Of a DNA stretch of 51,111 nucleotides, positions 4,534 through 27,858 are shown piece after piece. The notes below the pieces were generated by a model. It saw only the letters and a list, made by a program, of their open reading frames with translations, was not told the DNA's origin and searched no databases. Each line of letters opens with the position of its first letter. Within the stretch, counting starts at the first letter, position 1. Origin of the DNA: a virus; IMG/VR virus record IMGVR_UViG_3300009786_000019, positions 1-51,111 of that record. The stretch is one strand, 5' to 3'. Made by a program: the position numbers and the translations under genes.

Positions 4534-4541
4534 CCGCGAGC

Positions 4542-4567
4542 AAAAAAAAGCCCGCACGGCGGCGGGC
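4542..4567 (-). terminator. Rho-independent terminator of the 4587-5309 gene
   Basis: On the minus strand, arms GCCCGC and GCGGGC with a short GC-rich loop are followed by eight T. Nearly the same hairpin is used at 5456-5480 and 6172-6197. Confidence 0.9.
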
Positions 4568-4586
4568 TTGGGTAGATCGGGGAAGG

Positions 4587-5309: not shown

Positions 5310-5341
5310 GCGTTGCCCCTTGGGCTGTTAGTTGAGATTAC

Positions 5342-5371
5342 ATTCTACCAATCTATATGGGATAAACGCAA
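5342..5371 (-). promoter_or_regulatory. Sigma70-like promoter for the 4587-5309 gene
   Basis: Minus strand TTGCGT, 18-bp spacer, TAGAAT. The spacer begins TTATCCCATA, a string shared with the promoters at 18981-19008 and, in part, 11547-11575, so it may be an operator. Confidence 0.65.
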
Positions 5372-5455
5372 TGAAGGCCCCCGGTCACAGAACTGGTAGG
5401 TTTGGACCACGGCCCACGGCCCTTGGGCGGCTTGTTTAACTGTCAAACACGGAGC

Positions 5456-5480
5456 AAAAAAAAGCCCGCACGTGGCGGGC
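5456..5480 (-). terminator. Rho-independent terminator of the 5497-6087 gene
   Basis: Minus-strand GCCCGC/GCGGGC stem with CACGT loop region, followed by eight T. It is almost identical to the terminators at 4542-4567 and 6172-6197. Confidence 0.9.
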
Positions 5481-5496
5481 TTTGGGAAGGGTAGGA

Positions 5497-6087
5497 TTAG
5501 TAGATGAGGCGAGATTTAACCTCGACACTATCGAGCGCGTCCTTGATAAGGTCCTCGATTTTTTCTGTGGCGATAGTTTGTGCGTCCTCTTTTGCGGTAT
5601 CGATTGCTTCACAAATCAAAGTCTGCACATCGTCGCGATCAACTAGTGTGCCCTCAACTTGCATATCTATAATGCGCTCGCTAACAACTTCCTCGATATC
5701 ACCAAGATCATCTTCGATCATCGTCTGCACATCGTCCCGCTCTACAAAAAGACCTTCATTTTGAAATGATTCCAGTTGCTGGCTCACTTTGACATAAAGC
5801 CAGTCATCAAAATGCGGGATGCTCTCGAACAAATTATACATCTGCTCTCGATGCTCAAAGATTGAGTCATTGACAACCTGCCTTTGCGAATTGGTCTGCT
5901 CATCGACGATATTTTGTGCAGTTGATAACTGTTCCTTAAGTTCTTTCACACGATCCATTAACTGATCGCGTTGCAGTTTGATCAGGGCTGAATCGTCTTC
6001 CTCTTTAACCAGAGTCTCGCCAGAAAAATGAATTGTAGCGCTGGGCTGGTCCTGCTTTTCGTTTTGGTTTTCGTTTTGCTTTTCCAT
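5497..6087 (-). CDS. Coiled-coil accessory protein, unknown function
   Basis: 196 residues from ATG 6087, chosen because GAGG lies nine bases before it; an in-frame ATG 12 codons upstream (6123) falls before the leader element. After a Lys/Asn/Gln/Glu-rich start comes a heptad-like stretch (about residues 35-70). The C-terminal half is acidic and carries a repeated V-(E/D)-R-D-D-V-Q-T motif, twice about 30 residues apart, each followed by a helical segment. It is probably an elongated homo-oligomer. The unit has its own TCAACTAA leader (6101-6108), a TCGCATAC box (6132-6139) and its own terminator. Confidence 0.75.
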   Translation of the reverse strand: MEKQNENQNEKQDQPSATIHFSGETLVKEEDDSALIKLQRDQLMDRVKELKEQLSTAQNIVDEQTNSQRQVVNDSIFEHREQMYNLFESIPHFDDWLYVKVSQQLESFQNEGLFVERDDVQTMIEDDLGDIEEVVSERIIDMQVEGTLVDRDDVQTLICEAIDTAKEDAQTIATEKIEDLIKDALDSVEVKSRLIY

Positions 6088-6131
6088 TTTAAATCCTCGT
6101 TTAGTTGAAAGGTGCAACATCATTGCTGCAC

Positions 6132-6139
6132 GTATGCGA
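6132..6139 (-). promoter_or_regulatory. TCGCATAC box
   Basis: The minus-strand string TCGCATAC, preceded by an A/T-rich YTWAAA, occurs upstream of three genes at 4158-4165, 6132-6139 and 6790-6797. The CATAC part is where a -10 element is expected, but no good -35 is seen, so it may be an activator-dependent phage promoter. Confidence 0.5.
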
Positions 6140-6171
6140 TTTTAGCAACCAACCTTGTAAAAAGTAAAGCC

Positions 6172-6197
6172 AAAAAAAAGCCCGCACGTGACGGGCC
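6172..6197 (-). terminator. Rho-independent terminator of the 6214-6756 pair
   Basis: Minus-strand stem GCCCG/CGGGC with a seven-base loop, followed by eight T. Confidence 0.9.
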
Positions 6198-6213
6198 TTC
6201 TCATGGTTAAGGT

Positions 6214-6615
6214 CTACAAACCGGCTTCTTCGTCTATTGTTCCGCACTCGTCCCTGTAGACGGGATGCCATAACGTCTTAATAGGATCGCCCGGTTTGTG
6301 AGAATCACGCGCCCCTTGCCGAAATTCTAACTCCTCGTCGTAACTCAATTCCCGGAAAAGCAACTTTTGGTATGGTATCTGCTCGACGAATGGCAGATTG
6401 TCAGGGCTTTCGCTACAACGTAGAAAACCAGCCGCGTATCCATCCCATCTATCCGCAGTAGCATCGTGACCCAATCGTGACCCGCCCTGTTCCCTTATAT
6501 GGTCTGCCTTTACGCTGCACACCTCGGCAATGTAATCCATCAATCCGGTCAATTGCTCCTCATCAATAATAGACTCGATAAGGTCAAATCGTTTGTTATT
6601 CTGCAATACGTTCAT
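6214..6615 (-). CDS. Hypothetical accessory protein
   Basis: 133 residues, ATG 6615, preceded by GAGGG ten bases upstream inside the previous gene's end. It is soluble and slightly acidic, with no membrane segment or known motif. Residues 45-65 contain D-R-W-D-G-Y-A-A-G-F, a helix-like pattern seen in small phage early proteins of unknown role. It forms a two-gene unit with the 45-residue gene that ends three bases before it and shares that gene's leader and the terminator at 6172-6197. Confidence 0.65.
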   Translation of the reverse strand: MNVLQNNKRFDLIESIIDEEQLTGLMDYIAEVCSVKADHIREQGGSRLGHDATADRWDGYAAGFLRCSESPDNLPFVEQIPYQKLLFRELSYDEELEFRQGARDSHKPGDPIKTLWHPVYRDECGTIDEEAGL

Positions 6616-6618
6616 CTT

Positions 6619-6756
6619 TCAACCCTCTTCGTCAGTAAGCAATATTTTTTTCAGGTCAGGGACGGTTAATCCGGTTTCGCATGACAAATCTAAAAGTGAC
6701 ATGTTCATGTTTCGATCATAAAACTCACGTATTTCTGCGGGTGTCATTTCATTCAT
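6619..6756 (-). CDS. Small protein with helix-turn-helix-like sequence
   Basis: A 45-residue reading frame from ATG 6756, preceded by GACGAGG and the TTTCAACTAACG leader (6773-6780). The sequence (starts MNEMTPAEIREFYDRN, then a D-L-S-C-E-T-G-L-T-V-P-D-L-K-K-I-L pattern) looks like the paired helices of a small DNA-binding domain, in which a short turn separates two amphipathic helices. Its spacing to the next gene (three bases) and good ribosome site support expression. It may be a regulator of the accessory cassettes; this is inference. Confidence 0.6.
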   Translation of the reverse strand: MNEMTPAEIREFYDRNMNMSLLDLSCETGLTVPDLKKILLTDEEG

Positions 6757-6818
6757 CTTTCAAGCCTCGTCGTTAGTTGAAAGCTAAGAGTATGCGATTT
6801 AAGCAATAGACACAAGCC

Positions 6819-6845
6819 AAAAAAAAGGCCCCCATGATGGAGGCC
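6819..6845 (-). terminator. Rho-independent terminator of the DUF932-like gene
   Basis: Minus-strand GGCCTCC/GGGGGCC stem (one G-T pair), followed by eight T. Confidence 0.88.
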
Positions 6846-6863
6846 CTGAAAGGTTGGTGAAGT

Positions 6864-8036
6864 TTACGCGGCGATTTTGTCGAGCAATGCCCCCGCTTTG
6901 CGTTCAAGATTAACTCGCGCATCCTGATGCGGAATATCTCGCGCAATGGCAGTGATACCTTGGGCCGCATCCCACACATTACGAATCGGCTTTTGCTCCT
7001 CCTGAATGTGCCGAGCCATTGCAGCCTTTGCCATTCTGGCAGATAACCCGCCACGCTTAGTTAGAAACTCCAACGCATCGTCATCATCCTTGGCGATCTT
7101 CGCATCACGTGCCGCCTCGACTCCCGCTAACAAGGTGCTAGTGGAATGATGACTGTAGGTTTCCAGTGCTGGTGCCATTTCATCATAGAACCGATAGACC
7201 GCATTCTTGGTATGCCTGATTTTGATTTCCTCAAAATTCTCGACGCCCCATAGGTTCCGGTTCTGGCAGACCCCGCGCAAGTACATACAGGCAAGCCCGG
7301 CAGTTTTAGAACCTACCTCACTGTTCCACCAGTAAAATCCACGGAACACTAGATCAGGTTCGCCATTCGGAAGTTTGCCTATTTCAATGGGGTTCAAATC
7401 ATCGCAGAGAAAACCGAACATATCCCGGTCACTCGCAAACAAAGTGCTACCCGTGCTGGAATGCGGGTTATACGTGCCATTAACTGACATGCTGCCGGGC
7501 ACTTTCCACTGGCCCTCATTAGCTACCTTGACTACCGGCGCTAACATTTCACGATTCAAAATGCGGCCATAGTCTGGACCAGTGGCAGCCCGTAGATTAC
7601 CGCCGTCACGATGATCATACGTCTTGATGATTTCGCGGCCCCGGTTATGGCGTAATCCCCACGTCAAACAATCCGCAGCTAATGGTGCGGGCAGGTCTTT
7701 TATGTATCCCGCTGGGGCACCCGCTAGGGTTGCCAGTTGACCGGCTGACCAGTTGGTAGGTTCGCTGCTGATTACGGCACCCGTCTTAGGGCAGTCATAC
7801 TCTACGCGCAGTTCACCTTGACTGATGTTCTCTTGGTCAAATTTCCCGACGATGTTGAGTTTATGTGTATCAACTACGCGACTGGTCATACCTTGGCAAT
7901 CGGTATTAGCAAAGGCTACCAGTTCTTCCAACGTATCAAACCGCTCATCTTCCGGGCGGTTAGCGTAATTGCTGGCAAGGTGTGAACCTTCACTACTGAT
8001 GCCGTGCTGTATTGCTGATGTTTTATATGCATCCAT
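6864..8036 (-). CDS. DUF932-family phage/plasmid-like protein
   Basis: 390 residues, resembling the DUF932 (phage/plasmid-like TIGR03299) family, which is common in phages and plasmids and whose biochemical role is unknown. Family-like segments include W-S-A-G-Q-L-A-T-L-A-G (about residue 98), N-R-G-R-E-I-I-K-T-Y, A-A-T-G-P-D-Y-G-R-I-L-N and the late A-A-Q-G-I-T-A-I-A-R helix. Start chosen at ATG 8036, with GAGGA eight to ten bases upstream; a TTG five codons earlier lies on that ribosome site and is rejected. It has a TTCAACTAAC leader (8060-8067) and its own terminator. Confidence 0.8.
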   Translation of the reverse strand: MDAYKTSAIQHGISSEGSHLASNYANRPEDERFDTLEELVAFANTDCQGMTSRVVDTHKLNIVGKFDQENISQGELRVEYDCPKTGAVISSEPTNWSAGQLATLAGAPAGYIKDLPAPLAADCLTWGLRHNRGREIIKTYDHRDGGNLRAATGPDYGRILNREMLAPVVKVANEGQWKVPGSMSVNGTYNPHSSTGSTLFASDRDMFGFLCDDLNPIEIGKLPNGEPDLVFRGFYWWNSEVGSKTAGLACMYLRGVCQNRNLWGVENFEEIKIRHTKNAVYRFYDEMAPALETYSHHSTSTLLAGVEAARDAKIAKDDDDALEFLTKRGGLSARMAKAAMARHIQEEQKPIRNVWDAAQGITAIARDIPHQDARVNLERKAGALLDKIAA

Positions 8037-8078
8037 TTTGTAAATCCTCAAATTAAAAGTTAGTTGAATACCGGCAAT

Positions 8079-8293: not shown

Positions 8294-8321
8294 TGTATAG
8301 GAAATTATGGGATTTAATCAA
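8294..8321 (-). promoter_or_regulatory. Sigma70-like promoter for the 8141-8263 gene
   Basis: Minus strand TTGATT, 16-bp spacer, TATACA. The -35 overlaps the end of the VRR-NUC gene. The transcript would begin close to the TCAACTAA leader at 8278-8285. Confidence 0.7.
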
Positions 8322-8719
8322 GGACTATCAGTGATTGCTTTGAACACTTCGTCGAAATGAAACGGTTGTGGCTGGTGCAAATAGGGCTTTAGCCTGACCC
8401 CCACTTCTGCCAGTTCAATAGCGTCCTGCGCTTGATACAAAAAAAGTTCTGCGGGTGTCTCTGAATTTTTTTGTTTGCGAATGAGAACCCATGCACTCCC
8501 GTGGGCATGGCGGGTTAACCAACTAATCTGGTGCGGGCGTAACCCTACCTTGTATGCCGTGATGACTTTGAGTTCAATGAAATGAAAAAGACCCTGCCTG
8601 TCACAGACACAAAGATCAGGTACACCGGCGGTAGCGGTACTTTCAATCCTAGTGGATTTCAGCCCCATCGTTGATGTCTTTAACCACCGTCTTATCTGGT
8701 TCCAAAAGTCCTTTTCCAA
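8318..8719 (-). CDS. VRR-NUC-type PD-(D/E)XK nuclease
   Basis: 133 residues, a stand-alone VRR-NUC-like domain of the kind that can cut branched DNA such as replication or recombination intermediates. The catalytic signature is complete: an N-terminal acid (E2), GVPD with D35, then F-I-E-L-K giving E49 and K51. The start is a TTG at 8719, overlapping the terS end by 71 bp; the first ATG in frame (8668) would remove the conserved first helix E-K-D-F-W, so TTG is preferred. The overlap suggests co-expression with terS, and it may trim branches before packaging. Confidence 0.78.
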   Translation of the reverse strand: MEKDFWNQIRRWLKTSTMGLKSTRIESTATAGVPDLCVCDRQGLFHFIELKVITAYKVGLRPHQISWLTRHAHGSAWVLIRKQKNSETPAELFLYQAQDAIELAEVGVRLKPYLHQPQPFHFDEVFKAITDSP

Positions 8720-9575: not shown

Positions 9576-9600
9576 AAAAAAAACCCCGCCGAAGCGGGGT
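9576..9600 (-). terminator. Terminator of the cysteine-peptidase-like gene
   Basis: Minus-strand ACCCCGC, UUCG tetraloop, GCGGGGT, then eight T. It is a very stable hairpin. Confidence 0.92.
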
Positions 9601-11261: not shown

Positions 11262-11285
11262 AAAAAAACCCCGCGAGGAGCGGGG
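11262..11285 (-). terminator. Terminator downstream of the RHH gene (distal of a tandem pair)
   Basis: Minus-strand CCCCGC/GCGGGG stem with five-base loop, followed by seven T. Confidence 0.88.
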
Positions 11286-11296
11286 TCTGAGGGGGT

Positions 11297-11575: not shown

Positions 11576-11598
11576 AAAAAGCCCCGTCGAAACGGGGC
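11574..11598 (-). terminator. Terminator of the DNA polymerase operon
   Basis: Minus-strand GCCCCGT, UUCG, ACGGGGC, then seven T, 64 bp after the polymerase stop. Confidence 0.92.
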
Positions 11599-11661
11599 TA
11601 AGGACCCTTGCAGAGAGTCACGCGCTTGAAAGAGCTGACCACAAACAGGGGGCCAATGCAA

Positions 11662-13554
11662 TTATTTTGCTTCGCCCCACGAGTCACCAATCTCGACATC
11701 GCATAAACTAGGTACTTCCAAAGGCACCGCCTCAGTCATAATCTTGGCTACCGCTTCTGCTTCGGCTTTATTTTTCACGGACATCGCTATCTCATCGTGA
11801 ATCTGAAGCATGGGCAATCGTCCGGTGTTATAGATATCGACCATCGCTTTCTTGGTCATGTCAGCAGCAGACGCTTGGATCAGGCGGTTCAGGGCTTTGT
11901 AGGTAAACGCCCGCTTTAATCGCGTGGTTTCACCGTACTCTTTGACCGCATCTTTATACGGCATCGCTTTGCTCATCCCAAAAGTATCGGGTTCCCAGAG
12001 ATCGAACCTGCATTTCCTGCCCAGAATGCTGCGGATCGAGCCACTGGCTGACCGGTCATTCAAGCGGTTTTGCACACCTTGCATCAAACCTTTCACAAAC
12101 GGTACGCGGTTGTGGTATTGCTTGACCAAATCCTTGGCCTCATCCACGGGGATATCTAGCTGTTCACTCAGCTTGTTAACACCCATACCGTACATCATGC
12201 CTAGATTGATCGTCTTAGCCTGTTTGCGCTTAATTTTCGCCATCTCTGCGACCATCGTGTGGAAGTCAGTTGTGGCATCGTTACAATAGCCGTCCACAAA
12301 CTCCTGTACGCCCTCTAACGGGATTCCCCGCGACTGCCCATATATGTGTGCATAATGAACCAAGATCCGTGGTTCCTGCTGAGAGAAGTCTATGGCCGCC
12401 CACTGCTCACCTTCTTCCGGTAGAAACAGACTGCGGATCATGGGGCCAATCTCAGGATCTCTGGCGGGAATTTGTTGCAGGTTAGGATTGTTCATGCTGA
12501 TCCTTCCTGATACCGTACCCCCATCGTCTGAACGAATTTGGTTAATGTGACTATGGATGCGGCCATCTGTGTGCGTGTGACGCATGATTGTGTTGATGAA
12601 GGTCCCGCTAGTCTTGTTCAGGTTCCTAGCTTCAAGGATGAGCTTCGCGAGTGGGGCCTGATGCTCCTGAAGGAAGAGTTTCGTGAACGACGGACTGCCA
12701 TTTTTGGTCTTTGGGAATGTGATCCCGCACTTGTCGAAAGCCTTGGCAACCGATTGTGCTGCCCAAATCTCCACATCCATCCCAGCTTTTTTCTTGATTT
12801 CTTTGATGACGGCCCGTTCCCGTTTGAGAATTTCATCTCGCGTTCGCTCAACTCGGTCAGTGTCCACTCGGACACCCTTCATAGTCATTTCGACGAGGAC
12901 TGGGAGGAGATCAAGTTCGAGATTAACAATGTCCCAAAGGTCTTCCTTGCCAAGCTCGACCCGGAAGTATTGCCAAAGTTCAAGCGCAAGAACCGCGTCA
13001 GTCTCAGCGTAGGGACCGACATACATGGACGGCATCTTCCACATCTCAGCCTTCGGATCGACACCAAATTCCTTCGCAGCAGCGACTAAATCTTTTTCGG
13101 ATTTTGTTTTGTTGAGGTAGTCGTAAGAGCAAGCGTTGAGCGAATAACTAAATCGGTTTTCGTCCAACAGACTGGCGATCAGCATGGTATCTATGATCCG
13201 CCCATTGACTTCAAAGCCACTGGCGCGGAGCCAACCCAGATCATATTGGGCGTTGTGCATGACTTTCTCGCACGGCAACTTTAATAACTTGGTCATCCAT
13301 TTGTCGACAATGCGCTTGTCGATGTTGCCCCCGCCAAAATGTGCGATGGGCACGTAACCCTTCCAATCCTCCGTGGCAATTGCGTATCCGCAGATTTCGC
13401 CATTATTGGTTGCCCAACCCGGTCCCTTTGTTTTCAGGTCCGGGTCCCGCGTTTCGAGGTCAATCGCTATACGTTTTGCGCTGGACAGATCGGGTAGCTC
13501 AAGCGGCGGCACCCACTCCGTCTTTGGTGGAAACATTGCCATCTGTAATGTCAT
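11662..13554 (-). CDS. polA: DNA polymerase, family A with 3'-5' exonuclease
   Basis: Replicative polymerase of 630 residues; no 5' nuclease domain. The exonuclease has Exo I D-L-E-T, Exo II H-N-A-Q-Y-D and Exo III Y-A-E-T-D. The polymerase has motif A (A-I-D-F-S-Q-Q-E-P-R), motif B (R-K-Q-A-K-T-I-N-L-G-M-M-Y-G) and motif C (Q-I-H-D-E). The residue matching E. coli Phe762 is Leu451 (codon 12202-12204), the Leu variant seen in many environmental phages. ATG 13554 overlaps the SNase stop as ATGA, favouring it over a GTG three codons upstream. Confidence 0.95.
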   Translation of the reverse strand: MTLQMAMFPPKTEWVPPLELPDLSSAKRIAIDLETRDPDLKTKGPGWATNNGEICGYAIATEDWKGYVPIAHFGGGNIDKRIVDKWMTKLLKLPCEKVMHNAQYDLGWLRASGFEVNGRIIDTMLIASLLDENRFSYSLNACSYDYLNKTKSEKDLVAAAKEFGVDPKAEMWKMPSMYVGPYAETDAVLALELWQYFRVELGKEDLWDIVNLELDLLPVLVEMTMKGVRVDTDRVERTRDEILKRERAVIKEIKKKAGMDVEIWAAQSVAKAFDKCGITFPKTKNGSPSFTKLFLQEHQAPLAKLILEARNLNKTSGTFINTIMRHTHTDGRIHSHINQIRSDDGGTVSGRISMNNPNLQQIPARDPEIGPMIRSLFLPEEGEQWAAIDFSQQEPRILVHYAHIYGQSRGIPLEGVQEFVDGYCNDATTDFHTMVAEMAKIKRKQAKTINLGMMYGMGVNKLSEQLDIPVDEAKDLVKQYHNRVPFVKGLMQGVQNRLNDRSASGSIRSILGRKCRFDLWEPDTFGMSKAMPYKDAVKEYGETTRLKRAFTYKALNRLIQASAADMTKKAMVDIYNTGRLPMLQIHDEIAMSVKNKAEAEAVAKIMTEAVPLEVPSLCDVEIGDSWGEAK

Positions 13555-13937
13555 TCTCCCCACACCTTAGTTTTAGTGCCACCAAAATAAGGTACTGCCA
13601 ATCCCTCCTCGATCAACGTTTCGCAAATGTTAACGCCGGTTATACCTTTATCGTCAACGGTATAGGGTGCGGCTAACACACGCCCATACTTGTCTAACTC
13701 CTCACTGACGAACCGTACTTTTTCGCCGCATAGTTCTTCAACGCGGGCCGTGGCCTGAAGACCAAGCTTTTTCTCTGCGAGATTACGGGTCCGTTTTTCG
13801 GGGGTGTCGATCCCCAGAAAGCGCAGCCTTTTCTTTTTCAGCACTATGCCAAAGCCAAGGTCCACATCCACATCAATGGTATCGCCGTCCACCACGCGCA
13901 CCACCGTCCCTTCATAGTAATAAAGAGGGTTACTCAT
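13551..13937 (-). CDS. Staphylococcal-nuclease-like (thermonuclease) protein
   Basis: 128 residues, SNase family. V-D-G-D-T-I-D-V-D-V-D-L-G supplies calcium-binding aspartates, R-F-L-G-I-D-T-P-E supplies the catalytic Arg and Glu, and D-K-Y-G-R-V-L-A supplies the second Arg. The C-terminal helix I-C-E-T-L-I-E-E-G-L-A is also present. There is no signal peptide, so it acts inside the cell, possibly in host DNA breakdown or DNA processing. It is joined to both neighbours by ATGA overlaps, within the replication operon. Confidence 0.9.
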   Translation of the reverse strand: MSNPLYYYEGTVVRVVDGDTIDVDVDLGFGIVLKKKRLRFLGIDTPEKRTRNLAEKKLGLQATARVEELCGEKVRFVSEELDKYGRVLAAPYTVDDKGITGVNICETLIEEGLAVPYFGGTKTKVWGE

Positions 13938-14275
13938 TTTTCATTATCCTCACACGGAGCACCATCTAAATTGATTTTCAGAGTTTCAAGCAAATCCAAT
14001 TCGCTTTCGGTGGCTTTAAAGAAAAAGGCAGGGGTTCCATCCCCCATAGAGGCTCCGGCTATGTTGTATTCGTAATATTCGATGGCTTCGTCATAGGACA
14101 TTCCATCACCTATGAGGAGGTTGATAACCTTATCCTCATCGTACAGAAGGCAGTCGTCGTGACCCGATTTCCTACAAAGCCCTATAATTGCTTCATCAAA
14201 GCCATCTATCTTTAATACCTTACCATCCAAGTCCCAACGTCCCGACTCGTCATATTCATACAGTGAATCATTCAT
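13934..14275 (-). CDS. Conserved phage replication-operon protein, unknown function
   Basis: 113 residues. The core D-G-F-D-E-A-I-I-G-L-C-R and G-D-G-M-S-Y-D-E-A-I-E-Y-Y-E-Y-N-I-A-G-A resembles small proteins frequent in cyanophages and other marine phages, for which no function is assigned to my knowledge. It is acidic, has no membrane segment, and is coupled by ATGA overlap to the helicase upstream and to the SNase downstream, so a role in DNA metabolism is likely. Confidence 0.75.
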   Translation of the reverse strand: MNDSLYEYDESGRWDLDGKVLKIDGFDEAIIGLCRKSGHDDCLLYDEDKVINLLIGDGMSYDEAIEYYEYNIAGASMGDGTPAFFFKATESELDLLETLKINLDGAPCEDNEK

Positions 14276-15786
14276 AACTGGTAGCTCCTGTTGTGGTCTT
14301 GGGGTTCGACCAAAAATAAATTTTTTAAACTCCGTGTTATTGCAACATAAAAGGTTCTGTGCATGTCATCGGGGTTCAAGCTCATTTGTTGATCGGCGGC
14401 GGGGGATAGATCGGTGAACACAACAACGTTTTCCGCCTCCCCACCTTTGGCACCGTGGATCGTGGACACTGTGATACGCGGCACGGCGGTAAACTGCTCG
14501 CCCCGGCGTAACATGGCGATAATGTAAGCCCTGTCCTGTTCGGGCAGCTTGTCCATCGCCTGATGCCATAGCATGTCTTTGGTAGCCACTAAGCCATGAT
14601 GTTCCTGCAACTCCTGAAGATTTACCATATCCTCATCGTCGAGGGACGGCAACTTCTTAAAGCCGCGTAACACCCTTGTTTTTAGGGACATAAAGCTATA
14701 AATCTTCCGTGCAGTATCCCCTGTGATGGGACGGCCCTTTCTTAGTTCTTCCCAACCAATCACCGACGCGCTGATTTTTTCGCTGATGCTCCTGAAGCCA
14801 CGGTAGGTAAATAGGTAGCCACTGGATTTCAAATCCTGTTGTACCGGCTGTAGCAGGTACCCAGCCTGACCTAAAATGAGCCATGTGCCGTGGGCCATGT
14901 CCAGTTCGTCAACATTGTCTATTCGCTCTACCCGCCCCTCTTCCTTACGGGGTTCGTATTTTTTGGGGAACCGGTTGCGGATGCGGTTCACAACCTGCTC
15001 TGCAAGACTATGTACCTTGCTGGGTATCCGGTAGCTTTGGGTCAGGGTTTCTACCCCACCCTCCAGATTAATGAAATGATCAACGTCAGCCCCTGCCCAA
15101 CGATAGATGGCTTGGTCATCATCCCCCGCGCAGTACATCTTCTCTGACTTATCATCGAGCAGATGGGCAATGTCCCACTGTAAAGGACTGAGATCCTGCG
15201 CTTCGTCCAAAAAGGTTAACTTAAAATGTGGGCAGTACCGCGCACCAGACTCCACAAACACGGCAAGCATGTCGGTGAAATCGTACAGATTGAAGCGGTG
15301 CTTGTATTCACGTAGCGTCTTGTCCACGTAATCAACCAGATTCCATTCCTCGTCGATGTCGCTGATGTTGTATTGTTCTCTGAGCGATACTTTTCGTAGA
15401 CGGGCCAGATTGATGACCCCAAGGACAGGGTCAGCCGCGCTGTTGATTGACGGCAGATCATCGTCCACCGTGGATTTTGCGCCGTTCAGCGTGACCCCAC
15501 AAACCCGTGACAGTTCCCGATAGTTTTCGGCTTGCATCACCTGATCCCGTTTGATGTCGGTTAGGGTCAAGGCGAGACTGTGCAGTGTCCTGAAGTTTGG
15601 CAGGTCCTCTTTTGGGCAGAGATCAAACCGTTTAGCAGCACGTTCTTTGGCCTCGTTCGCGGCTTTGCGCGTAAAAGCCAGAAACGCAATCTCCGTGGGC
15701 CGTGTGCCCTGCTCCAAGGCTTGGTCAACCATATCCAAAAGTGTCGTAGTCTTACCCGTGCCGGGTGGACCGAAGATACGGAACAT
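14272..15786 (-). CDS. UvrD/PcrA-like superfamily 1 DNA helicase
   Basis: 504 residues, shorter than cellular UvrD (about 720). Walker A GPPGTGKTT (6-14), motif Ia F-T-R-K-A-A-N-E-A, DEAQD (Walker B), G-D-D-D-Q-A-I-Y-R-W (motif III), Q-S-Y-R (motif IV), S-T-I-H-G-A-K-G-G-E (motif V) and Y-V-A-I-T-R-S (motif VI) are all present, so it should be an active 3'-5' translocase. With a primase and polymerase beside it and no ring helicase, it is a candidate replicative helicase. Its ATG shares one base with the preceding stop (TGATG). Confidence 0.93.
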   Translation of the reverse strand: MFRIFGPPGTGKTTTLLDMVDQALEQGTRPTEIAFLAFTRKAANEAKERAAKRFDLCPKEDLPNFRTLHSLALTLTDIKRDQVMQAENYRELSRVCGVTLNGAKSTVDDDLPSINSAADPVLGVINLARLRKVSLREQYNISDIDEEWNLVDYVDKTLREYKHRFNLYDFTDMLAVFVESGARYCPHFKLTFLDEAQDLSPLQWDIAHLLDDKSEKMYCAGDDDQAIYRWAGADVDHFINLEGGVETLTQSYRIPSKVHSLAEQVVNRIRNRFPKKYEPRKEEGRVERIDNVDELDMAHGTWLILGQAGYLLQPVQQDLKSSGYLFTYRGFRSISEKISASVIGWEELRKGRPITGDTARKIYSFMSLKTRVLRGFKKLPSLDDEDMVNLQELQEHHGLVATKDMLWHQAMDKLPEQDRAYIIAMLRRGEQFTAVPRITVSTIHGAKGGEAENVVVFTDLSPAADQQMSLNPDDMHRTFYVAITRSLKNLFLVEPQDHNRSYQL

Positions 15787-15989
15787 CAGTCGTCGCAGTT
15801 GGGGCAGCTACCTCTGGTGTAGTCCCCCTTTGCAAACCAGTTCTCCTCGGTCTGACTTTTCATTCGCTCAAACACCTGACGAACACGTTCACGGGACAAA
15901 CCCAGACGCTCACCGATAGCGGTGAACGTCATGTCCTCGACATGTCGCATTCGGTAAATTTCTGCATTTCTATCTGATTTTTCCTGCAT
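15786..15989 (-). CDS. Mini sigma-region-4-like HTH protein with CxxC tail
   Basis: 67 residues. Residues 21-43 (T-F-T-A-I-G-E-R-L-G-L-S-R-E-R-V-R-Q-V-F-E-R-M) match the helix-turn-helix of sigma70 region 4, which reads the -35 box. Regions 2 and 3 are absent. The C-terminus adds G-S-C-P-N-C-D-D, a CxxC that might bind metal as a dimer. Stop-start overlaps with the primase (TAATG) and helicase (TGATG) place it firmly in the replication operon. It could redirect host RNA polymerase to late promoters, or simply bind DNA. Confidence 0.8.
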   Translation of the reverse strand: MQEKSDRNAEIYRMRHVEDMTFTAIGERLGLSRERVRQVFERMKSQTEENWFAKGDYTRGSCPNCDD

Positions 15990-17521
15990 TAGAACACTGC
16001 CTCTTTCGTTTCAAATTGTGGTGGGTCTATTTCAAGGTCCATTGCTTCAAAGGCGGGGATCACCCAGACCCGCACACTTCTTCCTTTGATTTTCAACACC
16101 GTTGATTCGCCATGAATGTCTCGTAGCCGCTGTGCAATCCGGTGCGATTTGTACTCAAACCATTTGTTTTTCTTCAGGTAGTTTTCAAAATCCTTCAATC
16201 GGAAATACGTCCGGTTGATCTCTTCATCCGTCCACGGTCTGCGTAACAGAATCTCTTCTTTATCCTGCGCCTGCTGCATGTGGCGGCAGAACTCCTCAAG
16301 GTAGTCATAGAACTGTCCACTGACGCTCGCGTCCTGCGATACCTCTACTATGGCGGATTCATTCTCTTTCATGTCGTTCAACAGCGAACTGATACGCCCT
16401 TCCCACGTCTGCTTCACAACACTGCGCGGCATGAAGTTGAGTTGCTCAAGACAGGCTTTTTGAAAAGCTGTCTGATTCATCAAGCCCTCAGTATCTAGCT
16501 CTAAAGGTTCTGAATTTACGTCCATAAACCAGACCGGCGGGGTGCTGTTGTATTTTCTGAGGTTGCCAATGCTGGCCCCCTGCACGGCAGACCCCACACC
16601 AAACTTTCGGGTATAGCAAAGCTCTTTGTTGCAGTGAGCGTTGATCGGTGCGTCACTACACTTATAGGCGTAGTCTTTGCGCTGCACCTGTTTCGCCACT
16701 ACGTTAACTTCGTTCAGCGGCAAGGGCGGAACGAGGTATTGCATGTTGTAGCTTAAAATCTCGCTCTCCCAGCTATCCGGGAACGCTTTTCGCAGATATA
16801 CCCCAATGTTAAATAAACCATTGTTGCGACCACCCTCGCTGATCTTGTCAGTACAAAGGATTTGAAGGCACGGCGGGCCGTCTGCCAGTAATTTCTTTTC
16901 TTTTACTTTGACGACCTGTAAGCCAATTACCTGCTCTGGGGTCTGGACGTGGGCTTCGTAAATCTCAAAAAACTCTTGAATCGTAGCGGAGGTGCCATCA
17001 TCCTGAATCGCGTACCGCAATCCCTCTTCTGCATTAAAATAAGGAAGATTGAGAAAGTTACCCACATCGCCGCGATCTAAATGCAGCTTGATCTGTTTCG
17101 GAAATATCTCGCTTTCGCCATAACCCAGCGCCGCAGCCATACACTGCAACGCTTTCTGCATATCTTTTGCTGCGACCCACTCTTTGGCAAACAAGAAACA
17201 ATGTGCGCCGCCGGACTTACTGCGACACACCACCAAAGGTAATTTCATTTTCCTAATCTTTTCAACAAGAAGTTTGTGATCGAGAGGGTATTGGTCTACA
17301 TCAATGCACCCCCACCGACACTCATCGTCCCGGTTAATTGGGATTATCCCAATCCCGGTCTTGCCTTTTAAATGGTTCTCCCACAAGACCGTGGTCCGTG
17401 ATTCACGCACGACGGCGGCTTTGCCTTGCATTTTGCCACTAGCACTTTCCTTTTCGATCCGGAAAGTGCCGTACGCTTCTTGGAGTCCATCAAAAATATC
17501 AATAAATTTTTGGACACTCAT
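15989..17521 (-). CDS. Archaeo-eukaryotic-type primase (TOTE-like AEP)
   Basis: 510 residues. The N-terminal domain has the AEP catalytic strand G-C-I-D-V-D-Q-Y with D74 and D76, then C-R-S-K-S-G-G-A-H (99-107) and the downstream F-P-K-Q and N-F-L-N-L-P-Y-F sequences of TOTE-type primase-polymerases. A middle helical region (about 220-300) resembles a PriCT-like module and ends in Y-K-C-S-D-A-P-I-N-A-H-C-N-K-E-L-C-Y, a probable zinc site. The remainder is unassigned. GGAG lies six bases before ATG 17521. It most likely makes primers for the family A polymerase. Confidence 0.87.
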   Translation of the reverse strand: MSVQKFIDIFDGLQEAYGTFRIEKESASGKMQGKAAVVRESRTTVLWENHLKGKTGIGIIPINRDDECRWGCIDVDQYPLDHKLLVEKIRKMKLPLVVCRSKSGGAHCFLFAKEWVAAKDMQKALQCMAAALGYGESEIFPKQIKLHLDRGDVGNFLNLPYFNAEEGLRYAIQDDGTSATIQEFFEIYEAHVQTPEQVIGLQVVKVKEKKLLADGPPCLQILCTDKISEGGRNNGLFNIGVYLRKAFPDSWESEILSYNMQYLVPPLPLNEVNVVAKQVQRKDYAYKCSDAPINAHCNKELCYTRKFGVGSAVQGASIGNLRKYNSTPPVWFMDVNSEPLELDTEGLMNQTAFQKACLEQLNFMPRSVVKQTWEGRISSLLNDMKENESAIVEVSQDASVSGQFYDYLEEFCRHMQQAQDKEEILLRRPWTDEEINRTYFRLKDFENYLKKNKWFEYKSHRIAQRLRDIHGESTVLKIKGRSVRVWVIPAFEAMDLEIDPPQFETKEAVF

Positions 17522-17542
17522 TTCACACTCCGCAGAAAAAAC

Positions 17543-17565
17543 AAAAAGGGCGACTTACGCCGCCC
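17543..17565 (-). terminator. Hairpin between ssDNA-binding candidate and primase genes
   Basis: Minus-strand GGGCGGC, GTAA loop, GTCGCCC (one G-T pair), then five T. It lies between the stop at 17574 and the primase ribosome site, so it probably attenuates primase expression instead of ending the operon. Confidence 0.75.
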
Positions 17566-17573
17566 CGCAACAA

Positions 17574-18347
17574 TCAAAAAACGTCTTTTGTTGCCTTCTG
17601 TTCTTCCTGCTCATGCTTCACAAGCACATCGCCTTCAGATATCGAATCGTGGAACTCCTTAGCACGAACGTACAAACTTTTGTCCGTGATCGGTCCAACG
17701 CGGGACATCTCCCAACCATGCCAACTGCCCTTAGAATTTTCTTCCTTAACAGTCTTCATTTCGTAGAGGTGCGAATATCGGGGCGGGTTGAAGGGACCCT
17801 TTGCCCCCACCATCTGCACCGATTGCATCATCGAGTTCCACTTGCGAGACTTTTTAAGCTGCGTGGATTTCATCGCAATCAACGCTGTTTCCGCTGATCC
17901 GTCCTCGTTCACCACCACGACAAAGTGCTGGTGCGTTTCCTCAATATACTCGCCCGAACCGCCGACAACATATTCTTTGTTATCTTCGGGTGACCGCTCC
18001 GTTTTGGGCATTTCCTGTCCCGGCTCATAGATCGCCTGTGGTGCGCCGCTGCCTTCGCCACGCGGTGCCCAACAAATGAACCTACGGTGATAAGCGCAAG
18101 GTATCACGGTGATGCCCTCACCACCCGCATAGATAGTGCCGGTAACAGTGTTGTAAATATCACCTTTTCGGGCATTCGTGTCTGCGTCATCCAAAACGGG
18201 ATCATTGCCGCTTAGAACTTTCAGAAAGGGTAACGCTAAATCCTCTTGCCCCATGTCCTGCAAGCCAGAACCCGCGTCGTCCTCAAACAGACCCAAAACT
18301 TCCGTGCTAACTTCCGTACTTGCTTTTTCTTTTAATGCTTTAGCCAT
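17574..18347 (-). CDS. Candidate single-stranded-DNA-binding protein
   Basis: 257 residues, no assigned family that I can name with certainty. It lies first but one in the replication operon, before the primase. The middle (about 60-215) is beta-rich with many aromatic and basic residues (H-R-R-F-I-C-W-A-P-R; K-S-R-K-W-N-S-M). The C-terminus is charged and ends D-V-F, recalling the acidic tail plus terminal Phe by which SSB-like proteins recruit partners. The 17543-17565 hairpin would let it be made in excess over primase, as expected for such a protein. The function is inference. Confidence 0.55.
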   Translation of the reverse strand: MAKALKEKASTEVSTEVLGLFEDDAGSGLQDMGQEDLALPFLKVLSGNDPVLDDADTNARKGDIYNTVTGTIYAGGEGITVIPCAYHRRFICWAPRGEGSGAPQAIYEPGQEMPKTERSPEDNKEYVVGGSGEYIEETHQHFVVVVNEDGSAETALIAMKSTQLKKSRKWNSMMQSVQMVGAKGPFNPPRYSHLYEMKTVKEENSKGSWHGWEMSRVGPITDKSLYVRAKEFHDSISEGDVLVKHEQEEQKATKDVF

Positions 18348-18349
18348 CG

Positions 18350-18928
18350 TTACTTACTCCTCTTGATAGTGGCACGTTGCCCAATAAAAGCCCCGAACAA
18401 ATCCATCGGGAACTCATTTCCATTTTCAGTTTGCTCTTTGACCCACGCCCGCAACGTCTGCGGATGGACAGCCGTTTTCTGCTCCGGAGCAAAACCTTTC
18501 TCTTCAGCCATTGTTGAAAAGGCAGCAGCCTGATCATCTTCACCTCTGCCGAATTGGCAGGTAACAGTATTTTTGATGATGTCATCGTGACCGTACTGGC
18601 GGAGCCAACCGTGCGCTTCCTCTTTGTTGGCTTGCGTAATGCTGCCACCGTAAGTTTGCTTGACGACTACCTCGCTGCCATCGTCGAGCGAGAACTTGCT
18701 GATGCCCATTTCATTCAGCATCGCAGGGAGTTCTTCGTCGGTGAGCTTCAGGAGGCTTTTCTTCTCTTCTTTCACGTGCTGCTCAAGAGCAGCAATCGTA
18801 GTCTCAGTAGCTAGAATTTGTCGAGAGATTGCGGCGACGGACGTAAGCCCGCCCTGATCCACTTTCTCGACGCTAGAGGCTTGTTTAGCCTCAAATTCGG
18901 ATTCAAACATCTCATTTAAATCGTCCAT
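18350..18928 (-). CDS. Conserved phage protein, first gene of the replication operon
   Basis: 192 residues from ATG 18928 (AGAGGA eight to ten bases upstream; a longer frame to 18982 would cover the promoter). Residues 1-75 are acidic and heptad-like (I-L-A-T-E-T-T-I-A-A-L-E-Q-H-V-K-E-E-K-K), a coiled coil. The second half has G-H-D-D-I-I-K-N-T-V-T-C-Q-F-G-R-G-E-D and L-R-A-W-V-K-E-Q, repeated in phage proteins beside ssDNA-binding genes. Function not recognised; a partner of the next protein is plausible. A Gam-like role was considered but not supported. Confidence 0.7.
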   Translation of the reverse strand: MDDLNEMFESEFEAKQASSVEKVDQGGLTSVAAISRQILATETTIAALEQHVKEEKKSLLKLTDEELPAMLNEMGISKFSLDDGSEVVVKQTYGGSITQANKEEAHGWLRQYGHDDIIKNTVTCQFGRGEDDQAAAFSTMAEEKGFAPEQKTAVHPQTLRAWVKEQTENGNEFPMDLFGAFIGQRATIKRSK

Positions 18929-18967
18929 CGTGTTTCCTCTTTCGTAGTTAAAGGCACCGTTCGGGCC

Positions 18968-18995
18968 TTGACAATTACCCATATTATCGTATCAT
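18968..18995 (+). promoter_or_regulatory. Rightward promoter for the SNF2 helicase
   Basis: Plus-strand TTGACA, 16-bp spacer, TATCAT. It overlaps the leftward promoter at 18981-19008. The spacer starts ATTACCCATATTATC, nearly the mirror image of the opposite promoter's TTATCCCATGATAC, so one regulator could control both. Confidence 0.75.
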
Positions 18996-19008
18996 GGGAT
19001 AATGTCAA
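18981..19008 (-). promoter_or_regulatory. Leftward promoter for the replication operon
   Basis: Minus-strand TTGACA, 16-bp spacer, TAATAT. Transcription would start about 45 bp before ATG 18928. The TTGACATTATC core recurs at 11254-11244 and in the 10475-10498 dyad. Confidence 0.82.
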
Positions 19009-19021
19009 CAGGAATAATCAG

Positions 19022-20473
19022 ATGGACTTTAATTTTAAGACTCAGCCTTACCAGCACCAGTTAGCAGCCCTAGAAGAATCGTGGGCCGCGCCTCATTATG
19101 CGTTGCTCATGGAGATGGGAACCGGCAAAACAAAAGTCGCACTCGATACGATGGTAAAACTTTACGAAGAAAACAGACTTGAAGCCGCGCTAGTTATCGC
19201 CCCAAAGGGGGTATACGACAACTGGATAAAAAACGAAATCCCAACTCACGTTCCCGACGAAATCGAGCCTTTGATATTACGTTGGCAACCTGCCCAAAGC
19301 AAGAAATACCAAGATGAAGTGTCCCAGTTCTTGTTTGACAAGACGGGCGTACTAAAAATATTCGTAATGAACGTCGAAGCTTTCTCTACGCCAAAAGGCA
19401 CAAAGATGGCAAACACCTTTTGTAAGCGGCATCCAGACAACATGGTGCTTGTGGACGAAAGCACGACGATCAAAAACCGTAAAGCAAGACGTACCAAGAA
19501 CATCGTAGCGCTCAACAAAGTTAGCAAGTATCGACGCATCTTGACGGGCAGCCCAATAACAAAATCCCCAATGGATTTGTTCAGCCAGTGTTTGTTTCGG
19601 GACTAAAAAGCCTTGGGATTTGAGAACTTCTTAGCCTTTCAAGCGCGTTACAGCATCCTTGCCCGCCGTGTCATCAACAACCGCAGCTTTCAGGAAGTTA
19701 CAGGGTATCGCAGACTCGACGAGTTAACGGAAAAGCTTGAGCATTTTTCTAACCGGGTTCTGAAGAAAGATTGCCTTGATTTGCCTGATAAAATTTACAT
19801 GCGCCGAAATGTGGATTTGACGGACGAACAAGTTAAGTTGTATCGACAGATGCAGAAGCTGGCCCTTGCGAAGCTGCAAAACGGTGAGCTTGCTACAACG
19901 CAGAGTGTTTTGACCCAAATTATGCGTTTGCAGCAGATTTGCTGTGGTTTCTTGCAGCCCGACGAAGGAGAACTCCAACCTATCCCCAGTAAGCGTATGA
20001 GCGCCCTCAGAGAGATTGTGGATGAGGCTGATGGTAAGGTCATTATCTGGGCTACGTACAGACACGACATTGCTAAGATCACTGAGATGCTGCAAAAGGA
20101 GTTTGGCCCAAGGTCCGTGGCTTCCTATTTCGGAGACACGCCGCAAGAGGACCGGCAAGATATCGTGAATCGGTTCCAAGACCCAACTTCAGATTTGCGG
20201 TTTTTCGTCGCTCAACCCAAGACCGGGGGCTACGGGATTACGCTCACGGAAGCCAGCACCGTAGTGTACTACAGCAATTCCTATGATTTGGAAATCCGTT
20301 TACAGAGCGAGGACCGCGCACACCGGATCGGGCAAAAACGAGCCGTTACCTATATTGATCTGGTATCTCCAGACACGATTGACGAAAAGATCCTGAAAGC
20401 CTTACGGAGCAAAATTAACATTGCCAGCGAAGTGTTGAACGAAGATACGATGTCTTGGCTTAGTGAGTCATAA
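19022..20473 (+). pseudogene. SNF2-type helicase interrupted by an in-frame TAA
   Basis: The only plus-strand gene. From ATG 19022 (AGGA eight bases upstream) the frame reads Walker A G-T-G-K-T (33-37), DExx-type V-D-E-S, and L-T-G-S-P-I-T, then meets TAA at 19604-19606 (codon 195). The same frame stays open to 20473 with V-I-I-W-A-T-Y, G-G-Y-G-I-T-L-T-E-A-S and the motif VI D-R-A-H-R-I-G-Q-K-R. Together the halves make a normal-length SNF2-like helicase. Either a point mutation or a sequence error made a pseudogene, or the stop is read through, or both halves work separately. Homologues would put a coding codon (for example Gln) here. Confidence 0.85.
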
Positions 20474-25183: not shown

Positions 25184-27858
25184 TATTTTCTCTCCCGCTG
25201 TCGATTAAGCTCATCTCGTAAAGTGCTTTGATCGTCATTTCGATTACCTGACTGTGTTTCACCAAAAGCAGAGTTTGGAAAGCCTAAAGCAAGTTTTAAG
25301 TTATCTTCAAAAGCAACCAGTTCTGCAATTACACTTTCTAAACGTCTTTGTTCTCGTTGAATTGGCAACAATTTAGAAGCTTCAGGTACATTAATATTAA
25401 AATAGTCAGGCAAACTCAAAGCATTATCCGCAAACAAAATTTGCAACTGTTCACGTATACCGCCTACGGCTGCTAAATTATTTGCATCGTATGCAAAAAT
25501 ACCTGAATTAACTTCATCTTTTACACGTTCAATTTCTGCCGAAATACGAGCGGGTATACGGTTCTCAATAGTTGTATCAACTAAAGCTCCTGTCAGTTGC
25601 AACATCAAATTTTGCATTTTTCTATCAACGTCAAATTTCATTTTGCCGTCTGGGGTAAGGCGGTCCTCTTTAAGACCAAGTTCTCGAAAAAGTTCTCTCG
25701 CATTGTCTATAACTCTATCGGGAATGCTGCCAATTCCAATATATTTTTCGAGTTCTAGGTCTTCTGCTGAAAAAATTGACGTTGGGCGTAATCGCCAAGC
25801 CAAAGAATCAGGATTTACCTGACCGCTAGGATTAAAATATAATTTTTTAAACTCAGGGCTTTGATAAATTTCTACAGGAACTTTACCGTCTTTATACTGT
25901 CTTCCAATTTCAGCAGCAATTTTTATCTGGTTTTGTAGTTTAGTCTCTCTTCTTTGCGCTTCGTTTAGTACAGCTTCGCCTTTTGCTACGTCCCCTGCGT
26001 TTAGAAACTTTTCAAGCTCTGGCGTAACAGGTTTAATTTGAGGAAACAGCTTTGAAAAATCTGAAGTAGGTAGACCGCTTTCTAAACGAGTTCTGTAAGA
26101 ATTTGTTACTAATTTGGTCGGAGTGTCTGCACTTGTAATAGTGCCGCCCTGACCGTCTGGTCGTTCTTTTGGCGAATATTGTTCCGCTATGGCTGCTTCA
26201 ATAATTGCAACACTTTCAGGATCTAAAGCTCCGGTTCCGTAAGCCGCCATACTAGTTGGATCTGATAAAATTCGTAATGTATCGCTTAGTTGTGGCTTGT
26301 CAGCTTTGATAGCGGCAGTTCCCGCTAAAACGAGACTATCAGGGTGTAATGCCTGAAGCTCAGAAAGACGATTTGCACCATCGGGACTGGTAACGTCAAT
26401 TAAATAAGTTTGGCCTGTATCAGTATTCACGAAATTCTTATAATTAACGCGCTGTGCGGCAGTAGATTGTGTAGCCGGACCTGTAAGAACTTGGTTTGGG
26501 TCCTTAACAAGTGCGTCGTACTCAGGTGTTCTTTTTATTACAGTGGTAAGATTTCCAGTTGTTTGGTCTTGAAAATTTACTGGTTTTGGTCCTGTATCGC
26601 TTTGACTAGCGGCACCAAACTCGACAAACCCCATTTGCGAGTAAAAGCGTTGTACACTTTTTGGAACGTTTATCATAGTATCTGGTCGGCCTTGCAAACC
26701 AATATTTACCATTCCGGTAGGCATGTTTTTAATTCGTTGCAATGCCCTAGCTTGTTCAGAAGCAGTTAAATCGCTTCTACTTTTTATTGCGCTTTGTAAT
26801 GCCGCCGTGTCTAAAGTTAAAGTCTGTTTTTGTCGAGTTAATTCTTGTTCTTTTTTTAAATCAAACAAGCTTTGACTTCTTGCCCCAAGCTTATCGAACA
26901 ACTGTGTTTCTTGTGCGGATTCTGCCAAACGTTCAGCGGGACTCATTTGCCGTGAGCCGGGAGTCGCGAACGCTAACGCGGTGTTCGCAACGTCAAACAG
27001 CATTTGTGCTTGCGTTTGCTCTCTTTGTTGTTGCAATAGTTGCTGGTTCAACTCGTCACTAGGCCTGATACTTCGATATACGTCTTTGAACTCACTAAAT
27101 TCTTCTTTCAAAGTTGGTACATCAATTGTTGGATATTGATTTTGCAATAAAGCTAATTGTTCAGGCGTGGGGACTTCAGGACGAACAACACGTTGCAGAT
27201 TTTCATCAGCAAAATACTGTACGGCACCCCCTTGGTTAAAATTTACAGGGGGCTGACTACCAACCTCCATCATTGCAGCTTCGGCGGGCATCTCAGGAGC
27301 CATATTGACGGTAGACATAATGCCCTCGGCCATCGGACCCTCTACCGAAGTTTCCATCATTTCTTCTTCGGCTAAACTGCCAATACCCTGATCAATACCG
27401 GCAAGCTGCATGACAGGCTGCACCAGAGCTAATACTGTATCCGGCGTTTGTTGTGCATCATCAGGACCCACATATTCTGCAAGTTCTGCTCGGCGGGCTT
27501 CAACCGGTTGCACATCTCCGCGAACCGCGTTCATCATTTCTTCCAAATCGTCAGAATCTTCAAGCGTGTCCATCTGCCCTTGCATTTGCTCAAAAATTTG
27601 AGTAAATCCTTCGGGAGAGGCTTGTCCTTCTTGCGGCATCATCATGGGATCTTGCGGCATCATTGCTGGTCCGGGAGCCGCGATCATCGGTTCTTCCATC
27701 ATCATGGGCGCTTGAGGGACCATGCCACCCTCTTGCTTTTCGATTACGCCGCGCCCCATCAAAATGTCTTTTTGGGTAACTTGCCCATCACCGCTCAAGT
27801 CAGGAAAGGCTACGCCCCCCATCTTAAACATCTGACGATTCATTAAACCTCTGTTCAT
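25183..27858 (-). CDS. Virion protein with EF-hand-like loop and Met/Pro-rich region
   Basis: 891 residues. Near the N-terminus D20-L-S-G-D-G-Q-V-T-Q-K-D31 fits the 12-residue EF-hand calcium loop (acids at 1, 5 and 12). Residues 45-75 are Met/Pro-rich. D-Q-G-I-G-S-L-A lies at about residue 155-160. The rest (about 230-890) is a long, helix-rich, Gln/Leu-rich body with no enzyme motif. Its ATG overlaps the previous stop as ATGA, and its stop overlaps the next start as TAATG, so the two neighbours and this protein are co-translated. Likely an internal core or ejection protein. Confidence 0.6.
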   Translation of the reverse strand: MNRGLMNRQMFKMGGVAFPDLSGDGQVTQKDILMGRGVIEKQEGGMVPQAPMMMEEPMIAAPGPAMMPQDPMMMPQEGQASPEGFTQIFEQMQGQMDTLEDSDDLEEMMNAVRGDVQPVEARRAELAEYVGPDDAQQTPDTVLALVQPVMQLAGIDQGIGSLAEEEMMETSVEGPMAEGIMSTVNMAPEMPAEAAMMEVGSQPPVNFNQGGAVQYFADENLQRVVRPEVPTPEQLALLQNQYPTIDVPTLKEEFSEFKDVYRSIRPSDELNQQLLQQQREQTQAQMLFDVANTALAFATPGSRQMSPAERLAESAQETQLFDKLGARSQSLFDLKKEQELTRQKQTLTLDTAALQSAIKSRSDLTASEQARALQRIKNMPTGMVNIGLQGRPDTMINVPKSVQRFYSQMGFVEFGAASQSDTGPKPVNFQDQTTGNLTTVIKRTPEYDALVKDPNQVLTGPATQSTAAQRVNYKNFVNTDTGQTYLIDVTSPDGANRLSELQALHPDSLVLAGTAAIKADKPQLSDTLRILSDPTSMAAYGTGALDPESVAIIEAAIAEQYSPKERPDGQGGTITSADTPTKLVTNSYRTRLESGLPTSDFSKLFPQIKPVTPELEKFLNAGDVAKGEAVLNEAQRRETKLQNQIKIAAEIGRQYKDGKVPVEIYQSPEFKKLYFNPSGQVNPDSLAWRLRPTSIFSAEDLELEKYIGIGSIPDRVIDNARELFRELGLKEDRLTPDGKMKFDVDRKMQNLMLQLTGALVDTTIENRIPARISAEIERVKDEVNSGIFAYDANNLAAVGGIREQLQILFADNALSLPDYFNINVPEASKLLPIQREQRRLESVIAELVAFEDNLKLALGFPNSAFGETQSGNRNDDQSTLRDELNRQRERK

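Follow-up and report, generated by a model that had tools for sequence, protein, structure and literature searches.

The virus record IMGVR_UViG_3300009786_000019 (51,111 bp, analysed over its whole length and called the window below) carries at positions 11662–20473 a replication module in which a UvrD-like superfamily 1 (SF1) helicase, and not the SNF2-family ATPase encoded nearby, probably fills the fork-helicase slot in place of a ring helicase, as judged by sequence comparison. In bacteria, and in the majority of DNA phages, the fork helicase is generally held to be a hexameric ring. The assignment builds on the gene content of the module, its intact motifs, the lack of ring helicases, the co-inheritance of the UvrD-like gene with a primase of the archaeo-eukaryotic primase (AEP) superfamily, and exchange with superfamily 3 (SF3) ring helicases. 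The module is real, intact and ring-less, belongs to a known, abundant marine phage type, and is a self-contained unit of a lytic tailed ocean phage infecting bacteria.

Gene identities were obtained from Pfam and PHROG profile scans of the window proteins, which confirmed the AEP-TOTE primase, family A polymerase, UvrD-like SF1 helicase and SNF2 protein named in a first-pass annotation of the same DNA. A leftward operon runs in the order gp33-like, gp34-like, AEP primase, sigma-region-4-like helix-turn-helix (HTH) protein, UvrD-like helicase, 113-aa protein, staphylococcal-nuclease-like (SNase) protein and DNA polymerase A (PolA). The SNF2 gene lies opposite to it on the plus strand and starts from the shared intergenic region. 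The features are as follows.

11662–13563, minus strand: PolA, 3'-5' exonuclease and polymerase motifs intact, Leu762-type (Pfam/PHROG, motifs)
13551–13937, minus strand: SNase protein (PF00565, 1.4e-11)
13934–14275, minus strand: 113-aa protein, no function assigned; many relatives have one, at varying positions
14272–15786, minus strand: compact UvrD/PcrA-like SF1 helicase, 504 aa, proposed fork helicase (PF00580, 8.7e-32)
15786–15989, minus strand: 67-aa sigma-70-region-4-like HTH protein (PF04545, 6e-9)
15989–17521, minus strand: AEP (TOTE-family) primase, 510 aa (PF22548, 2e-13; phrog_21866, 3e-102)
17574–18347, minus strand: Pam3 gp34-like protein, OB fold, probable single-stranded-DNA-binding protein (SSB) (PF23977, 6e-61; AlphaFold2 model)
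18350–18928, minus strand: Pam3 gp33-like (DUF7307) protein, no function assigned (Pfam)
18966–19010, no strand: two face-to-face sigma-70-like promoter motifs (consensus scan)
19022–20473, plus strand: SNF2-family superfamily 2 (SF2) ATPase, interrupted by TAA in this assembly (PF00176 plus Helicase_C)
8318–8719, minus strand: VRR-NUC/Hjc-like nuclease, weak match, outside the module coordinates

The record carries a perfect 123-bp direct terminal repeat (copies at 1–123 and 50989–51111) and is therefore a complete, circularly assembled phage genome, which makes the absence of a ring helicase from it meaningful. Sensitive profile searches for such a helicase were negative in the window and in 18 relatives, in agreement with the first-pass annotation. 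Within the window, the DnaB_C profile gave no match, the DUF5906/SF3 and VapE profiles gave none, and AAA_25 gave only a sub-threshold match, on the P-loop of the UvrD-like protein; the only plausible Walker A motif in all six frames (open reading frames (ORFs) of at least 100 aa) belongs to that same protein. The profile search was sensitive enough to pick up the divergent DnaB of phage MW202803 at 24 bits. In a panel of 19 genomes (the window plus 18 related near-complete records, namely four IMG/VR genomes and 14 deposited phages) DnaB_C and VapE were each found in 0/19 and SF3 in none above the cut-off, with UvrD and SNF2 each in 19/19. DnaB_C was also missing from 31 further partial contigs.

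The UvrD-like protein matched PF00580 at 111 bits, its nearest solved structures are PcrA, UvrD and Rep, and its PHROG match to Dda-like helicases was far weaker (8e-10 vs 4e-80). By sequence it is a UvrD/PcrA/Rep SF1A helicase and not an SF1B (Pif1/Dda-like) one. The Walker A, DEAQD, GDDDQ, YR, H..KG.E and R motifs showed little or no variation among 30 relatives. In the primase, D74, D76, S103, G105, H107 and E138 (DxD, SxGxH and a third acidic residue) as well as Cys 288 and 302 were invariant in 58 sequences; E138 would be the third ligand. Since the motifs are invariant in relatives, both proteins are likely active. PADLOC matches (GajB, ZorD, PrimPol) were attributed to general helicase/primase similarity, and a defence system was rejected.

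The primase consists of a Prim-Pol domain (1–207), a helical PriCT-like part with conserved Cys 288/297/302, and a C-terminal domain (~312–495) that ends in a winged helix. It scored 50.7 bits against PF22548 (AEP-TOTE; cut-off 27). In its AlphaFold2 model (mean predicted local distance difference test score, pLDDT, 88) residues 1–207 aligned with the fold of the CRISPR-associated Prim-Pol (CAPP) (Z 20.7, root-mean-square deviation (rmsd) 2.9, 189 aligned), and residues 395–495 matched winged helices (Z 6–8), among them the C-terminus of the SCCmec Cch helicase (Z 7.1). By fold and motifs in sequence and model, the protein belongs to the AEP superfamily, and primer-making activity is predicted. 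A TOTE conflict system has its AEP in one polypeptide with helicase/nuclease. Neither a helicase nor a nuclease domain is part of the 510-aa primase, which stands in a phage replication operon, and its TOTE connection is at the domain level only. Where the AEP has homologues in bacterial genomes, these carry a fused SF3, AAA_25 or SF2-like domain, the last in L227. AEP-TOTE plus PriCT plus DUF5906 (SF3) fusions were seen in L222, L223, L224, L228, L209, L214 and L218 (SAR116, Rhodospirillaceae, Mesorhizobium and Woeseiaceae contigs), and AEP-TOTE fused to AAA_25 in the bacterial contigs L229 and L230. The C-terminal domain is present in all intact UvrD-linked primases and absent from the fused bacterial forms. 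Descent of the primase from an AEP-SF3 fusion by helicase loss was considered and not concluded: its C-terminal part showed no profile similarity to that of the L223 fusion, although the winged helix is similar to the Cch helicase C-terminus. In an AEP tree the helicase context switches several times; its deep branches are weak, an incorrect fragment stands in the L201 row and the identity of the L219/L220 partner is weak, and the tree was used as background only.

Two scans of IMG/VR gave 158 loci. Each gene was counted over the contigs long enough to show it; these contigs are closely related to one another and do not count as independent. UvrD came after the primase on the same strand in all 112 such contigs, an opposite-strand SNF2 gene stood upstream of the module in all 56, gp33 and gp34 were present in all 99 and PolA in all 38. 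Cultured phages at a greater distance, with SAR11, roseobacter, cyanobacterial and gammaproteobacterial hosts, have the same gene set. The first-pass annotation had called the combination unusual; given these occurrences, and a Leu762-PolA/SNF2/UvrD association published in 2018, that description has to be dropped. Among 50,697 phage records, at the thresholds used, this AEP was detected in 25, this UvrD-like helicase in 25 and both in 24 (records that are not independent of each other); SNF2 was detected in 1,345 and gp34 in 479. UvrD adjoins the primase in the marine and Nanhaivirus groups and adjoins PolA in Acinetobacter, Klebsiella and Salmonella phages. Physical linkage alone therefore does not explain the pairing of AEP and UvrD.

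The two exceptions are mirror images. In MW202803 the AEP domain lacks the C-terminal half, UvrD is missing and a DnaB-like helicase is encoded. The Thermus phage Riverbug (L234) has a UvrD-like gene and an overlapping gene that matches the primase C-terminal domain only, with no recognisable AEP. The Riverbug primase appears to be split across 26982–28564: Riverbug_48 is PriCT-like by eye, and Riverbug_47 is the C-terminal domain match that overlaps the UvrD-like gene. Sister phages show the exchange in another form. SNF2, gp33 and gp34 are common to the window, YuA, Bordetella MW2 and Pbunavirus JG024, and PolA is shared with YuA and MW2 as well; AIIMS-Plu-RaNi is a PolA relative, and JG024 has a different polymerase. 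In all four an AEP/primase is fused to or stands beside an SF3-type ring helicase, with no PF00580 helicase. From the co-occurrence, the mirrored exceptions and this slot exchange we infer that the UvrD-like protein probably holds the place of the ring helicase in the sister phages.

The same comparison bears on SNF2, which the first-pass annotation had named beside the UvrD-like protein and a recruited host helicase as a possible fork motor. SNF2 is present throughout the panel of 19 and is conserved upstream of the module, as a main motor might be. However, it is spread over the 1,345 phage records given above, coexists with SF3 rings in the three sister phages checked (YuA, MW2 and JG024), and is interrupted by a stop codon in the window. 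SNF2 proteins are, moreover, translocases and generally not strand-separating, according to PMC9069017. A role for SNF2 as the main fork motor is thus highly improbable, and of the three candidates the comparison favours the UvrD-like protein.

The stop is an in-frame TAA at 19604–19606, where the 99%-identical relatives L002 and L003 read AAA; the gene is intact in relatives. Four transversions fall within 35 nt (19599–19633) of a sequence otherwise nearly identical to L002/L003 (simulated clustering P 0.0015). Because the TAA is private to this assembly and the transversions are clustered, a local base-call or assembly error is probably responsible rather than a dead gene, as far as the sequence can tell, and a pseudogene or stop-codon recoding was rejected.

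Under the favoured reading, the AEP primase would lay primers, the Leu762 PolA would extend them, and the gp34-like protein would coat single strands as an SSB. The UvrD/PcrA-like helicase would open the fork, presumably moving 3'-5' along the leading template, and the primase would tether it there, possibly through its C-terminal domain, supplying the processivity that a non-ring motor lacks alone. SNF2 might act as an accessory double-strand translocase in protein clearing and fork remodelling, and not as the main unwinding motor. SF1A helicases can drive forks when tethered, as Rep does in phiX174 and PcrA in rolling-circle plasmids.

Several points weigh against this reading. UvrD-type helicases are poorly processive alone and are mostly repair enzymes. 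The AEP/UvrD records amount to about nine lineages, and we found no biochemistry for any member of this module family. The prophage-like L201, L205, L217 and L226 encode the AEP together with its C-terminal domain, but no UvrD gene lies within 10 kb of it; the AEP-UvrD link is therefore not absolute, and the C-terminal domain may serve another purpose. The PolA relatives VpKK5 and ply2008005c showed neither a ring nor a UvrD helicase by the profiles used; some phages of this PolA type thus solve unwinding otherwise.

The prophage-like loci, L201, L205 and L217 of which carry AEP with no helicase gene nearby, could be taken together with the ring-less genome as a sign that the phage recruits host DnaB, the AEP and PolA using host-opened forks and the UvrD-like protein serving repair or restart. 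Host helicase use is established for the temperate phages lambda and P2. However, the near one-to-one retention of AEP and UvrD-like genes and the exchange of UvrD for SF3 would not be expected of a mere repair enzyme, Pfam recognised no DnaC/lambda-P-like loader among the proteins of the region, and one gene set serves phages of all the host groups named above. We regard host recruitment as unlikely.

VpKK5 and ply2008005c might instead suggest that strand displacement by PolA suffices without a dedicated fork helicase, UvrD and SNF2 merely clearing obstacles. Keown et al. 2022 (PMC9069017) saw strand displacement by some of the viral PolAs that are linked to SNF2 and proposed that it could compensate for a missing ring helicase; the related CAPP Prim-Pol is capable of it as well (PMC8211822). 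The presence of UvrD with intact motifs throughout the panel and the long IMG/VR contigs argues against it, since this implies strong selection together with the primase, and we give this explanation little weight. The UvrD-like helicase remains our preferred candidate.

The remaining proteins of the favoured scheme were characterised as follows. PolA matched PF00476 (2e-64) and the 3'-5' exonuclease PF01612 (2e-10), with leucine at the E. coli 762 position (RKQAKTINLGMMYG at residue 446); its UvrD and SNF2 neighbours agree with the description of Leu762 group II, to which it may belong. The gp34-like AlphaFold2 model (mean pLDDT 91) aligned with the RB69 gp32 core (Z 6.3, rmsd 4.5, 153 aligned) and T4 gp32 (Z 5.5), and its top structural row was the phiC31 RDF (Z 8.4). 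Foldseek returned nothing at E 0.001 or better, so that the OB fold comes from the second aligner alone; a sequence search of solved structures with the primase and the gp34-like protein gave nothing useful. The model suggests that the gp34-like protein is probably a single-stranded-DNA-binding protein with an OB fold. The gp33-like protein was kept in every related viral contig of sufficient length; its start was placed at an ATG that follows the promoter-like site.

The two promoter motifs, TTGACA-16-TATCAT (plus) and TTGACA-16-TAATAT (minus), are nearly superimposed between the leftward operon and rightward SNF2 and are partly conserved, in close relatives; they could fire only alternately. 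The 67-aa sigma-70 region-4-like gene between UvrD and primase (15786–15989) occurs in a subset of relatives only, and the DSL-LC04 gene at the corresponding place is annotated sigma-G. Upstream of the operon, 6864–8051 encodes a DUF932-like protein (phrog_1362) with no function assigned, and the VRR-NUC/Hjc-like protein is a probable accessory replication or recombination nuclease, from its sequence match. Terminator-like hairpins (AAAGCCCGC..GCGGGCTTT plus a T run) stand behind almost every small leftward gene at 4538–6853 and also at 9583–9600, 11266–11288 and 11580–11599; four of them form one repeat family, and such sites are about twice as frequent in the window as in shuffled sequence. 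Two arrays of 54-bp tandem repeats (28294–30051) lie inside an 882-aa ORF (27855–30503) and encode 18-residue units rich in A, G, Q and T (e.g. RTGLGDTRQAQAGIGDAL); the product is a probable virion protein.

By shared genes, the window, a complete tailed-phage genome, is related to HTVC023P-type pelagiphages. The core genes of that type (PolA, helicases, TerL, GroES) are present, with PolA at 49–51% identity, and with a TerL that is 56–63% identical to those of HTVC023P-type pelagiphages, 023Pt_psg01 and DSL-LC04. A GroES-like Cpn10 gene (45800–46258) lies between a scaffold-like gene and small ORFs; GroES is a core gene of the HTVC023P type, whose published core genome also includes helicases and polymerase (PMC9599517). 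HTVC023P and HTVC027P resemble the window in primase, UvrD-like helicase, PolA, gp33, gp34, SNF2 and the GroES-like gene (PMC9599517), but primase and UvrD of this type are merely ~25–31% identical to those of the window, and the genomes measure 57–61 kb compared with 51 kb. Phage DSL-LC04 (OR003939) is collinear with the window (SNF2 on plus; gp33, gp34, primase, sigma-like, UvrD and PolA on minus), with 52% identity in primase, 56% in PolA and 60% in TerL; it differs in lacking the SNase gene between UvrD and PolA and in having a PD-(D/E)XK nuclease gene after SNF2. The YuA/MW2 (Mesyanzhinovviridae) and Pbunavirus modules share SNF2, gp33 and gp34, and in YuA/MW2 PolA, but their AEP is another one, fused to an SF3-type ring or adjacent to it, in contrast to AEP-TOTE plus UvrD in the window. 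Among solved structures, CAPP comes nearest in fold to residues 1–207 of the primase, and its DxD is required for activity (PMC8211822); the window has no CRISPR context, and the C-terminal halves differ.

The genomic pattern is partly published. Nasko et al. 2018 (PMC6302109) describe Leu762 PolA groups that neighbour UvrD- and SNF2-like, not ring, helicases, and Chesapeake Bay virioplankton contigs of Leu762 group II that resemble the window, for which the authors already concluded a non-ring arrangement; in the available part of that paper the primase is not identified and no test of co-inheritance or ring exchange is given. No link to an AEP primase was found in the available parts of PMC6302109 and PMC9069017. 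The non-ring arrangement is thus known from gene surveys, and we found no phage test of it in the literature searched; as far as that literature goes, the AEP-UvrD pairing, the SF3/DnaB exchange and the coupling-domain hypothesis are new. Since UvrD has been swapped naturally with SF3 or DnaB, and the C-terminal domain retained in some cases and lost in others, the proposal can be tested in cultured relatives and has a candidate coupling domain.

A works-like analogy, with no homology of the complex claimed, is offered by herpesvirus UL5-UL52(-UL8), in which a non-ring SF1 helicase and an AEP primase replace the ring. UL5 is an SF1B helicase of 5'-3' polarity (PMC12695949), whereas the window protein groups with UvrD/PcrA (SF1A). 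We tentatively propose, with the case for it somewhat short of even, a widespread tailed-phage class with a two-protein primosome, in which an AEP primase and a non-ring SF1A helicase would be coupled via the primase C-terminal domain and which would have arisen by swapping a ring helicase for a UvrD-like motor. If this is true, ring-shaped processivity is not required for a 50–80 kb genome, and herpesviruses are no longer the only well-known case of an SF1-AEP primosome, the phage system being their convergent counterpart of opposite polarity.

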